In this document: positions 963-63,445 of the stretch, in pieces
Position numbering within the stretch: the first letter of the stretch is position 1
Layout of the letters: every line of letters starts with the position of its first letter
NCBI GenBank assembly: GCA_030710605.1
Contig: CP092880.1
Location: 19,529,791-19,593,790 of the forward strand
Length of the DNA: 64,000 nt
Source: Cordylochernes scorpioides
Lineage: Eukaryota > Arthropoda > Arachnida > Pseudoscorpiones > Chernetidae
Reading direction: 5' to 3'
The notes under the pieces: generated by a model
Seen by the model: the letters and a program-made list of their open reading frames with translations, nothing else
The model's database searches: none
Told to the model about the DNA's origin: nothing
Translations under genes and position numbers: made by a program

Positions 963-1158
963 TTCCTAAAAATAAAGATACTTCAGCCAGTAAATCTTAT
1001 TACCTCGACGTTTCGACAAAAACCTTTTGTCCTCGTCAGGAGCAAACAAAAATTAAAACATTTAGCAAGACGTTAAAAATCATCCAAGGTTCCAATGGCG
1101 TTTTCACGCGATATTTTTGTTTAAAAAAATATGAATACCGGTCAGGCAGCCTTTATCT
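963..1158 (-). mobile_element. Short hammerhead-bearing retroelement (Penelope-like remnant), copy A
   Basis: A unit of about 196 bp lies between direct repeats of TTGGTATTTGAT at 951-962 and 1159-1170, which look like a 12-bp target-site duplication. Read on the minus strand it contains a hammerhead-like motif (1003-1042) followed by a short AT-rich tail. The same unit is present at matching places in copies B and C. Its body shares sequence with the larger foldbacks at 53650 and 63130. It has no coding capacity, so any mobility would be non-autonomous. Penelope-like affiliation is inferred from the ribozyme only. Confidence 0.55.
1003..1042 (-). ncRNA. Hammerhead ribozyme-like motif (family i)
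   Basis: On the minus strand the order is CTC, CTGACGA, one extra G, a 7-bp hairpin GACAAAA/TTTTGTC with a 3-nt loop, GAAA, CGTC, GAG. CTC and GAG can pair as the base of stem I. This matches the hammerhead core CUGANGA...GAAA with a C at the cleavage position. The extra purine between CUGANGA and stem II departs from textbook hammerheads. Activity is not shown. Confidence 0.55.
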
Positions 1159-2539: not shown

Positions 2540-3132
2540 TATTAATGGTTCCCTCGGTAATTGGAATGTTTAAAGGAATAGTACTTTGCCTTGGAATTGT
2601 ATCATTATTTTGTCTCAAATAAGTTGCTGTGGTCATCCTGAATTTTGTCTTTCCTAATTTTCTACATTACAAAATCATCGTTTTATCTAGTGAAACATTT
2701 TTCCCGGTCCCTTGAAAATACTCGATAAGTTGAATAAAATCAATTATTAATGGTTCCCTCGGTAATTGGAAGTTAAAGGAATAGTATTTCGCTTGAATTG
2801 TATCTTTATTTTGTCTCAAATAAATTGCCGTGTCATCCTGAGATAATCTTACTTTTGATAAATAATCTTTAAGATAATAAATTTAGTGATTATAAAAAAC
2901 TTATAGATAAAAAACTTGTTAACAATGTCGCAATGGTGCGCTGCTTGCGAGTTAAATCTACAAATCTGCAAATAACTAAGGATATTCATGATATTCACGA
3001 AATTATTTTGCAGAAACCTTCCCAGTACTATACTAATAATTTCCCAAAGTTTCATGGCGTTCCAATGAGTGGTTTGGTCAGGCATAAAGGACAGACACAC
3101 ACACACCATACATTCATTTATATATATATAGA
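2540..3132 (-). mobile_element. Helitron family 1 fragment with 5' terminus
   Basis: Read on the minus strand the 5' end is TCTATATATATATAAATG, the start shared by family 1 Helitrons here, lying at 3132 next to a host T. The body contains the family words GGTTCCCTCGGTAATTGG and TTTATGCCTGACCAAACCAC. The 3' hairpin and CTAG end are missing; the element runs into the assembly gap. No coding capacity. Confidence 0.7.
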
Positions 3133-40745: not shown

Positions 40746-40785
40746 AGTGGCCTGATGAAGCACGACCGTGCGAAAGATTGCCTCC
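40746..40785 (+). ncRNA. Hammerhead-like motif, family iv
   Basis: Order: AGTGGC, CTGATGA, extra A, hairpin GCACG/CGTGC with two-base loop, GAAA, GATT, GCC. GGC and GCC can pair as a short stem I. The surrounding 40490-40830 sequence is non-coding and ends in AATAAA-like words. Confidence 0.45.
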
Positions 40786-48060: not shown

Positions 48061-48272
48061 ATTGAAAATAATGAAAGCTTATCCTGACCAGGAGCACATG
48101 TGCTTGTTAGATGGCAGAACGCCATCTAGTGGAAGAGAAATCAACTAAACATTTATTTAACCTGTTCCCTGATATTTGGCCAACTCATTTTTAATATCAA
48201 CACTTGACCTTTTTATATTTTATTTTTCTATTGTTTTTTCTTCTATATAAATATAATAAAATGGTATATATA

Positions 48273-53332: not shown

Positions 53333-53698
53333 ATATTAATATGTTGAATTTTTCTAATGGCAGCATCTGTATTCTTTGTTCCAAATTCTTCGATATTTTC
53401 GAGATATCAGAAGTAATTGCTAATATTCCAGGTCTGGATTGTTATTTTTTAAATGCGATTCGATAGCAATATATATTTTAAAAATAACACAACCAGATCT
53501 CTGTCTTCATATAAAATACGTATGCAATTTTTTTTCGAGCATAGATCTTCAGCATAAAGTCGCTATATAAGATTCCAAGATCTGTTTAAGCAAAATTATT
53601 CAATGTAATAGATCTATTTATCATAAAGCTAGAGGTTGCCTGGCCGGCATTCATATTTATATAGAAAATAGACACTTAGGCCAGTTGGAGTTTTTTAT

Positions 53699-53743
53699 TT
53701 TCTCAACGCTTCGACAAAAATCTTTTGTCTTCGTCAGGAGAAG
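53699..53743 (-). ncRNA. Hammerhead-like motif, left arm (family i)
   Basis: TTCTC, CTGACGA, extra A, GACAAAA/TTTTGTC with loop GAT, then GAAGCGTT, GAGAA. The A just before the cleavage segment is changed to G (GAAG), which should disturb stem III. Confidence 0.45.
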
Positions 53744-53875
53744 TAAATAAAAATAAAGCATTTGGCAAGGCGTTAAAATTTGCTTTAGATGTTGTTCTAA
53801 ATTCGAAAAATCAGGTGAGAACGCCCTTGCAACCTCAGAACAATTTTTAATGCCTTGCCAAATGCTTTATTTTTA

Positions 53876-53928
53876 TTTATTTCTCCTGATGAAGACAAAA
53901 GATTTTTGTCGAAACGTTGAGAAAATAA
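53876..53928 (+). ncRNA. Hammerhead ribozyme-like motif, right arm (family i)
   Basis: TTTCTC, CTGATGA, extra A, GACAAAA/TTTTGTC with loop GAT, GAAA, CGTT, GAGAAA. TTTCTC pairs with GAGAAA over 6 bp and continues after one bulged A. This is the best-formed example in the window. Confidence 0.6.
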
Positions 53929-54069
53929 AAAAAACTCCAACTGGCCGAAGTGTCTATATTTTATATCTATTTATGTGCCACTTTTTCACACTTTGGTTAG
54001 TAGCCGGTAAAACCATATTCTTTCTCTATTTGTGTTTTTATCAAATATACAAACGTCATATTCAATTTA

Positions 54070-57721: not shown

Positions 57722-57910
57722 TTTAGGCGCTCTGCCATCTAAAAAAGCGCATGTGCTTGTGGTCAGGATATGCTTTCTTTATTTTAAATATCAACACCTG
57801 ACCCACTTTTTTTATATTGCTTTTTCATATATATATATTGAAAAAATTGAAAGCTTATCCTGACCAGGAGCACATGTGCTTGTTAGATGGAAGAGCGCCA
57901 TCTAGTGGAA
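57722..57910. repeat. Foldback with AGCACATGTGCTTGT arms
   Basis: GGCGCTCTGCCATCT, GCGCATGTGCTTGTGGTCAG and ATGCTTTC at the left are inverted at the right as GAAAGCTTATCCTGACCAGG, GCACATGTGCTTGTTAGATG and GAGCGCCATCT. Copy B retains only the right arm (48065-48135). Confidence 0.65.
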
Positions 57911-58026
57911 GAGAAATCAACTAAACATTTATTTAACCTGTTCCCTGATATTTGGCCAACTCATTTTTAATATCACACTTGACCTTTTTATATTTTATTT
58001 TTCTATTATTTTTTTTTATATAAATA

Positions 58027-59976: not shown

Positions 59977-60015
59977 CATTAAAATTGATTTTGATTAGTG
60001 AATAAAAAAATTAAA

Positions 60016-60783
60016 ATGGCAGATCTTGAAATTCTTTCAGAAATCGATCAAGAAATTAAAGTAGAGGAGACCAATATAGAAGAAGCTAAGAAAGAAGAGT
60101 CAAAGGAGAAAGGACTTGAGATAGAAAAGACTGAAGCTGAGAAACCAAAGTCCATGGAAGCTGAAATCAACGTCGCGAGTATTATGAAAGAAGATCTCAA
60201 GGCAGAAGAGGTTTTAAAAGAAAAACCCAAAGCAGAAGTAGCAAAGGAAGAAGAAGCAAAAGTAGAAAAAGTTGAAGAAGATGTTCCAAAGGCAGAGGAG
60301 GCCATAGATGCTATAGAAGAAGTTCTAAAGGTGGAAGAGGCCATAAAGCACTTAGAAAATATGCTAAAGGGATTAGAAGGGATTCCAATAGGAGAAGAGG
60401 CCATAGAAGATTACACAATTGCAGAAGAGGCCTTAGAGGTAGAAGAAGCCATAGAAGCTACAGAATTTGTTCTAAAGTTAGAAGAGAACACAGAGGCCAT
60501 AAAAAAGTTTATAAAGGTAGAAGATACCTTAGAAGGGATTCCAATAGGAGAAGAGGCCATTAAGAAAATAGATGAGATTTTAAAGGCAGAAGATGACTTC
60601 GAAGATATTACACTCTCAGAAGAGACCACAGAAGAACCTGAAAACGTCCAGGATGTAGAAAATGAAACTGAAAAAGGCTCGACTCATAAAAAGAAGCATA
60701 AAGTCAATTTTTTTCGTAGAATTCTTCAATCTATTAACAAACTTTTTTGCTGCTGGAGGAAAGGAAAGGTAAATGTTGATTAG
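60016..60783 (+). CDS. Acidic Glu/Lys-rich repeat protein of unknown function (intact copy)
   Basis: The ATG at 60016 (AAAATGG context) gives 255 residues; the in-frame GTG upstream is not a likely start. The protein is dominated by Glu, Lys, Ala and Ile/Val, with heptad-like spacing that suggests helix or coiled coil over about residues 10-215. EGIPIGEEAI occurs at about 121 and 173, and EEAIEA/EEAI units recur between, so it grew by internal duplication. The last 30 residues are quite different: strongly basic, with FFRRILQSINKLFCCWRKGK; the helix is amphipathic and Cys245-Cys246 could be lipid-modified. There is no signal peptide. I do not recognise the family. It is single-exon as read, and an AT-rich 3' region with AATAAA follows (about 60832). 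Two other copies in the window are broken. Confidence 0.7.
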   Translation: MADLEILSEIDQEIKVEETNIEEAKKEESKEKGLEIEKTEAEKPKSMEAEINVASIMKEDLKAEEVLKEKPKAEVAKEEEAKVEKVEEDVPKAEEAIDAIEEVLKVEEAIKHLENMLKGLEGIPIGEEAIEDYTIAEEALEVEEAIEATEFVLKLEENTEAIKKFIKVEDTLEGIPIGEEAIKKIDEILKAEDDFEDITLSEETTEEPENVQDVENETEKGSTHKKKHKVNFFRRILQSINKLFCCWRKGKVNVD

Positions 60784-61042: not shown

Positions 61043-61238
61043 TTCCTAAAAATAAAGATACTTCAGCCAGTAAATCTTATTACCTCGACGTTTCGACAAA
61101 AACCTTTTGTCCTCGTCAGGAGCAAACAAAAATTAAAACATTTAGCAAGACGTTAAAAATCATCCAAGGTTCCAATGGCGTTTTCACGCGATATTTTTGT
61201 TTAAAAAAATATGAATACCGGTCAGGCAGCCTTTATCT
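61043..61238 (-). mobile_element. Short hammerhead-bearing retroelement, copy C
   Basis: Counterpart of 963-1158, with TTGGTATTTGAT at 61031-61042 and 61239-61250. Confidence 0.55.
61083..61122 (-). ncRNA. Hammerhead ribozyme-like motif (family i), copy C
   Basis: Identical to 1003-1042. Confidence 0.55.
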
Positions 61239-63129: not shown

Positions 63130-63445
63130 CATTCATGTTTATATAAAAAATAGACACTTCGGCCAGTTAGAGTTTTTTATTTTCTCAACGTTTCGACAAA
63201 AATCTTTTGTTTTCGCCAGGAGAAGTAAATAAAAATAAAGCATTTGGCAAGGCGTTAAAAATTTCTTTAGATGTTGTACTAAATTCGAAAAATCACGTGA
63301 GAACGCCCTTGCAACCTCAGAACAATTTTTAATGCCTTGCCAAATGCTTTATTTTTATTCACTTCTCCTGATGAAGACAAAAGATTTTTGTCGAAACGTT
63401 GAGAAAATAAAAAAACTCCAACTGGCCGAAGTGTATTTTTTATAT
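63130..63445. mobile_element. Foldback with hammerhead-like motifs in both arms, copy C
   Basis: Counterpart of 53650-53970. The left motif (minus strand, 63181-63225) has a damaged core CTGGCGA; the right motif is intact. Confidence 0.75.
63361..63411 (+). ncRNA. Hammerhead ribozyme-like motif, right arm, copy C (family i)
   Basis: TTCTC, CTGATGA, extra A, GACAAAA/TTTTGTC, GAAA, CGTT, GAGAA. Stem I pairs over 5 bp. Confidence 0.58.

Follow-up and report, generated by a model that had tools for sequence, protein, structure and literature searches.

A minimal hammerhead motif with an extra core nucleotide in a truncated Penelope-like insertion of Cordylochernes scorpioides

Minimal type I hammerhead ribozymes were reportedly described in Penelope-like elements (PLEs) by Cervera and De la Pena in 2014 and by Luense and co-workers in 2017. 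Sections of two further papers place PLE hammerheads in pseudo-LTRs, with a stem III that is very short or missing and an expected dimeric action (PMC6155905; PMC7761336), and a passage of the second, a review, calls their in-vivo activity and role a mystery. The parts of PMC3846280 and PMC11167929 that deal with PLE architecture describe pseudo-LTRs, a tail, head-to-head copies, and also an internal start of reverse transcription; for PAc, a PLE of Anolis, excerpts of PMC11167929 report that cutting is protein-dependent and not needed for insertion in vitro. In the (+) hammerhead of the viroid CChMVd, A9 and stem II are separated by one additional nucleotide, A10, and according to a portion of PMC3705267 this A10 moderately lowers trans-cleavage, U at the same position raises it 3-4-fold, and G and C are harmful. 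Hammerheads in PLEs have been published, and so has a viroid hammerhead with an additional base at this site. A literature search that ran outside the two papers of 2014 and 2017 found no description of an extra nucleotide in PLE hammerheads.

The locus described here lies in a 64,000-nucleotide stretch of C. scorpioides DNA, the whole of which we call the window. A preliminary description had named a hammerhead-like motif in a short foldback, and direct reading of the sequence bears out all of its parts and their order: stem I is formed by TTTCTC (53880-53885) and GAGAAA (53919-53924), stem II by GACAAAA (53894-53900) and TTTTGTC (53904-53910) around the loop GAT, and the core by CTGATGA (53886-53892), GAAA (53911-53914), and CGTT (53915-53918). 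This is the type I order, CUGANGA ... GAAA ... UH with stems I and II, with two departures: one nucleotide intervenes where A9 would be joined directly to stem II, and stem III, an ACGU palindrome with a predicted cut after U53918, is not closed within the molecule. As ACGU has no loop, stem III pairing is possible only between two motifs. At three mismatches or fewer, the window holds six copies of the motif (at 53886 and 63368 on the plus strand, and 53702, 63184, 1004, and 61084 on the minus strand), and none was found in any of 100 shuffled windows. The features of the window are as follows.

53880-53924, plus strand: type I hammerhead motif, from direct sequence reading and folding
53893, plus strand: extra A separating A9 from stem II, at the site called A10 in CChMVd
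53702-53737, minus strand: partner hammerhead in the opposite arm, CTGACGA-A-GACAAAA..., with GAAG for GAAA
53691-53932, strand not assigned: foldback with inner arms 53691-53782 and 53841-53932 and outer arms 53646-53704 and 53921-53979
53618-53654, minus strand: PLE tail, the start of the PLE reading frame (ATG at complement 53652-53654), marking the 3' end of the insertion; its lower end is placed by homology and approximate
63368-63403, plus strand: second hammerhead copy, in the duplicated foldback (arms 63173-63263 and 63324-63414)
63184-63219, minus strand: hammerhead in the other arm of the second foldback, decayed, with CTGGCGA as its core and a broken first pair in stem II
1004-1039, minus strand: subfamily-B hammerhead with an extra G and a GUC cleavage triplet
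61084-61119, minus strand: subfamily-B hammerhead with an extra G and a GUC triplet, identical in sequence to the copy at 1004
40749-40782, plus strand: probable relic of another PLE-type hammerhead, from the descriptor with stem III left free and the AGCU pattern

Folded in isolation, the motif can form stems I and II with a free energy of -10.5 kcal/mol, the best fold being at -11.1; two-strand folding returned only a long duplex and is uninformative on a dimeric hammerhead. The covariance search that had been proposed as a check did not recover it: Rfam 15 gave no hammerhead match in the window at E<=1 or in the motif stretch at E<=10, and its matches in the window were tRNAs and sub-threshold matches of the kind expected from a foldback. 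Nor did Rfam at E<=1 match the PLE-type hammerheads of three other loci (L131, L137, and L142). The probable relic reads ggc-CTGATGA-a-GCAC.gacc.GTGC-GAAA-GATT-gcc, again with an extra A. Its stem III, AGAU, is one change from AGCU, and it is close to the GCGCGACC/AGCU type found elsewhere in the genome.

The inner arms of the foldback are 95% complementary and 58 nt apart, and the outer arms are 80% complementary. The 53.9-kb and 63.4-kb foldbacks are parts of a local duplication with a spacing of about 9.5 kb, and two further near-identical copies lie on the same contig (L001 and L003, the window locus being L002); because of this duplication, the window copies are not all independent. Similar coding-like repeats at 21-705 and 59998-60783, about 60 kb apart, point to a local segmental duplication as well. 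A transcript of the window locus is predicted to form a long hairpin at -194 kcal/mol, compared with -65 for shuffled sequences, and since this hairpin hides the ribozyme, cutting at the locus is unlikely; the window hammerhead is, on these folding predictions, probably silent. Only pseudo-LTR pieces are present in this copy, which is a truncated head-to-head PLE insertion with its ribozyme trapped in the foldback.

Across the genome (a 2.6-Gb assembly of 24 contigs), we searched with patterns for several motif types, to which we gave the labels fam1, fam2, fam3, and AGCU type. With the extra base included, the fam1 pattern matches 14,503 times, against 0 for the reversed pattern; without it there are 14 matches, several of which resemble one-base deletions. 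The fam2 pattern has 21,031 matches (control 53) and the AGCU pattern 10,668 (control 73). ACGU and AGCU were named in these patterns, so the counts cover these two stem III forms and other types may be missed; the AGCU form was first seen, in L140 and L057, with a descriptor that left stem III free. That descriptor gave 111 matches in the window and the fetched loci versus 1-2 in random sequence of the same size; the loci had mostly been chosen for containing the motif, and some overlap. The preliminary description had reported an extra purine in every copy, and within the window this stands: in all six copies the nucleotide that separates CTGANGA from stem II is a purine, namely A in four and G in two. 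Genome-wide it has to be widened, as the extra base is a trait of several PLE families, which may be A, G, or U, rather than a local oddity. C occupies the position in only 38 of the 14,503 fam1 matches, in 2 of 34 fam2 strings, and in none of 50 AGCU strings. In the reading that we favor, the PLE hammerhead of this genome has the additional nucleotide after A9 as a constant feature.

The stems vary among families and stay paired. Stem I arms pair at 0.788 against 0.569 (0 of 5,000) in an unselected set of 33 distinct arm pairs from 135 contexts, after 14 of 149 contexts with a stem II of less than 3 bp were dropped, which supersedes a count on 27 hand-picked rows (0.807 against 0.573) that missed at least one differing row, the minus strand of L161; stem I is often only 3 bp long. 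In the AGCU type, stem II pairing in the register with one extra base is 0.887, compared with 0.688 when arms are re-dealt (0 of 2,000; 50 distinct strings), and it does not exceed chance in registers 0 or 2; 4 of the 50 strings fit the register without an extra base best and 9 fit none. For fam2 taken by itself, stem II covariation is not significant (200 of 2,000), and in 12 of its 34 strings no register gives a stem II of 3 bp. At the position just before the predicted cut, which the search left free, all 99 ACGU contexts have C or T and never A or G.

The preliminary description had held that a core varying as freely as its flanks would speak against a ribozyme. In two subfamilies the core varies 3.2 and 3.7 times less, with pairwise diversities of 0.026 and 0.039 versus 0.082 and 0.143 in the flanks. 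These values come from the 20 of 60 flank-anchored copies that span the ribozyme, the other 40 being left out, and pairwise diversity was used because comparison with a single reference counted the private changes of that reference. The significance is modest: among 10,000 sets drawn at random from the flanks, 713 and 213 were as conserved as the core, and for contiguous blocks of flank the figures were 7 of 94 and 4 of 71; a comparison of two single copies (A versus B) gave no significant core effect (P 0.46). Taken alone, core conservation would be modest evidence from sequence comparison.

The motif's Penelope origin, which had been proposed from the letters alone, is borne out by its neighbors. 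Among the best 30 of 146 matches to the Pfam GIY-YIG model, seven loci (L043, L055, L056, L058, L062, L065, and L066) carry a fam1 motif on the same strand, 332-436 bp downstream of the domain. The other 23 lack it at that position: in L040, L042, L049, L052, and L063 the motif is upstream, on the opposite strand, or farther away, and in the remainder none was found within about 1.5 kb. Linkage to PLE frames, which are partial in these loci, is found in three families: fam1 (L130 and L131), fam2 (L142), and the AGCU type (L146). L130 is a palindrome of long reverse transcriptase (RT) and GIY-YIG frames with a motif at both outer ends, and L131 has, after the motif, a frame that starts at an ATG with MNAGQAASIFT, the first codons of which are the segment where most short copies end. 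Pfam finds RVT_1 and GIY-YIG in the frame P0002, and RVT_1 without a GIY-YIG match in P0001; the two align through both domains at 29% identity. A PDB search with P0001 gave no match. In L142, an open frame (P0003) lies about 160 bp upstream of a fam2 hammerhead, CTGAAGA-T-GGTAACA...TGTTACC-GAAACGTC; it has no Pfam match and is 28% identical to P0002 over 267 aa. The relatives thus link an RT and GIY-YIG frame to the repeat, and the pseudo-LTRs, inverted head-to-head copies, and short tail are also those of PLEs.

The AGCU-type locus L146 (L146:1-8801) has frames of about 780 aa, an inverted copy at left, and hammerheads spaced exactly 2,702 bp apart, at 3086, 5788, and 8490. Two of its units are identical, with 0 differences over 2,702 bp, which suggests a young array made by tandem or rolling reverse transcription in one event, by recent unequal exchange, or by assembly duplication. 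In an ungapped comparison, the upstream match of its first copy stops after about 68 nt. Other tandem arrangements occur: three fam2 hammerheads at L137:1057-1273 have a 92-bp period, and L069 has several copies of a short unit (about AGATAGAGGCTGCCTGGCCGGCATTCATACGTAA) made from the PLE tail. By eye, an ATG within CTGAAGATGG in fam2 loci (e.g. L132:1298) opens a frame that runs through the ribozyme past the cut, so cutting might destroy the start of the frame, as reported for PAc.

How the insertions end was measured in 60 copies selected by flank and not by core (the first 63 listed places minus C1:4055019, already in L032, 8728858, and 9439888). The 3' end lies 34-41 nt into the ORF in 50 of them, and the 15 nt beyond it are 77% A+T (58 of the 60). 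Their fixed 3' ends imply that reverse transcription starts about 37 nt into the ORF and not at the cut, which puts the motif within about 90 nt of that start. The 5' ends scatter in both arms, with one cluster at -85 to -70 (11 of 60). BLAST finds an inverted partner arm in 42 of the 60, two of which, at more than 280 nt, are doubtful, and no pair of ends is shared among the 42 copies with both ends measured. Among the first 100 listed matches on contig C1, counting neighbors closer than 1,500 bp, fam1 has 15 -/+ pairs and 1 +/- pair, and the head-to-head bias in the neighbor orientation counts is 15:1 and 19:3; 10 of the 15 fam1 -/+ pairs are 87-137 bp apart.

The reading that we favor, and consider very probable, takes the motif for a minimal type I PLE hammerhead that would cut as a dimer in tandem transcripts, and the window copy for a truncated insertion. 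The hammerhead would sit in the pseudo-LTR, past the end of one RT/GIY-YIG frame and ahead of the next. Its stem III, ACGU or AGCU, is self-complementary, and in a tandem transcript of at least two units it could join two motifs that would then cut the RNA as a dimer; in fam1 the cut would fall about 50 nt upstream of the ORF. Both the cutting and its role are inferred. The 4-nt palindromic stem III points to dimeric hammerheads, and two different loopless palindromes are what would be expected if stem III pairs with a second motif. Reverse transcription would begin about 37 nt into the ORF downstream of the cut, so that new insertions would end in a short tail, and many would be 5'-truncated and joined head-to-head to an inverted piece. 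Because this start lies downstream of the cut, a full copy would need uncut tandem RNA or a circle, and cutting would then have to be timed or blocked. The pseudo-LTR location, very short stem III, and expected dimeric action are those of PLE hammerheads in the published sections. PAc, as far as excerpts of PMC11167929 describe it, likewise has a hammerhead beside the ORF start, an internal start of reverse transcription, a tail, and AT-rich targets; its reverse transcription starts 111-118 bp into the ORF, whereas insertions here end 34-41 nt in, and its cut falls inside the ORF, whereas the fam1 cut would fall before it. The extra nucleotide resembles A10 of the CChMVd (+) hammerhead in the sections of PMC3705267, but CChMVd is a viroid, and in the PLE families of this genome the base is A, G, or U, with C very rare.

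If cut RNA were the template, reverse transcripts would be expected to stop exactly at the cleavage bond. No such pile-up is seen: among direct arms 0 of 60 end at 0 to +2 of the bond, and among inverted arms 2 of 42. Cut RNA thus does not stand out as the usual template. Ends at +3 to +21 (18 of 60 direct, 12 of 42 inverted) were not accepted as evidence of cleavage, as AT-rich microhomology also explains them. The missing pile-up and the nearness of the motif to the start of reverse transcription would suit another explanation, in which a conserved RNA structure serves PLE protein binding, a promoter, or the start of reverse transcription and only looks like a hammerhead, inactive today. In the same direction, excerpts of PMC11167929 report that the Anolis hammerhead needs protein in order to cut, that insertion persists in its mutants, and that RNA-seq reads were not found to end at its cut. 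We think this explanation unlikely, though worth keeping in view, since what stays constant among families whose stems are unrelated is the hammerhead core, every ACGU context has C or T ahead of the cut, and C3G and G8C, in another excerpt of that paper, abolish cleavage and are partly rescued in the double mutant.

The repeats had also been taken in the preliminary description for non-autonomous elements. A defined foldback family, MITE-like or SINE-like and spreading with its own ribozyme, would account for the very many short copies, the regular spacing of most -/+ pairs, and the 5'-end cluster. It is not well supported, and we regard it as improbable: the 5' ends of both arms scatter with no shared end pairs, the long PLE copies (L130 and L146) and other families share the head-to-head structure, and the short copies look instead like PLE insertions whose 5' truncation points vary while the 3' end is constant (50 of 60). 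Chance similarity or simple AT-rich convergence, to which the A/T-rich stem II loops and flanks might lend some color, is ruled out by the shuffle, reversed-pattern, and random-sequence controls given above, and its probability is negligible. As for the preliminary suggestion that the RNA may self-cleave, this is plausible for the PLE family, judged by sequence, and unlikely for the window foldback, where the motif is predicted to be buried. The motif at 53880-53924 is a genuine hammerhead motif from a truncated Penelope-type element, and as a PLE hammerhead in a head-to-head copy it is mostly explained; the interesting part is the recurrent extra nucleotide together with the loopless stem III.

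The same genome has a second kind of hammerhead. Retrozyme-like units (17,655 pattern matches) occur at L032:1705-3032, L066:2207-2715, and L051:2262-2663, often head-to-head; those of L032 are 352-bp tandem units whose hammerhead scores 38 bits with RF02275, under the cut-off of 52. They resemble the non-LTR retrozymes of PMC7229834 and, like the PLE motifs, have type I hammerheads, a palindromic stem III, and head-to-head junctions. Unlike those motifs, they have normal spacing without the extra nucleotide and a 6-nt palindrome, ACGCGU, and they are not expected to have a reading frame of their own. The window regions 57726-57967 and 48077-48191 are fragments related to the retrozyme unit, and the pair at 57.7-58.0 kb forms a foldback around an AT-rich stretch. 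Judged by their motifs, one genome holds two hammerhead kinds, PLE with the extra base and retrozyme-like without it. Neighboring retrozyme matches closer than 1,500 bp, among the first 100 of 17,655, are oriented -/+ in 13 cases, +/- in 0, ++ in 9, and -- in 5. Array BLAST matches end at unit positions 239 (L032) and 236 (L066), about 200 nt past the cut and adjoining AT-rich DNA, the 3' ends resting on these two arrays only. The shared head-to-head junctions and the nearly identical internal 3' ends fit, in this small sample, a mobilization of retrozymes driven by PLEs, which a section of PMC7229834 proposes and leaves open.

We put forward tentatively, with somewhat less than even confidence, a joint reading in which PLE hammerheads are a distinct dimer-only class and switch and PLE proteins mobilize retrozymes. 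If it holds, a mandatory extra nucleotide after A9 would accompany the loopless 4-nt palindromic stem III in the PLE class, cutting would need two motifs per tandem transcript and so act as a switch that spares single-unit RNAs, and PLE proteins would be the mobilizing machinery of this genome's retrozymes. Several PLE families, one of them with identical tandem units, keep the altered core despite diverged stems and proteins; such families are a natural test of selection on the extra base and the dimer-only stem III, and through the head-to-head junctions that PLEs have in common with retrozymes, the question of who mobilizes the latter can be tested on genome sequence.
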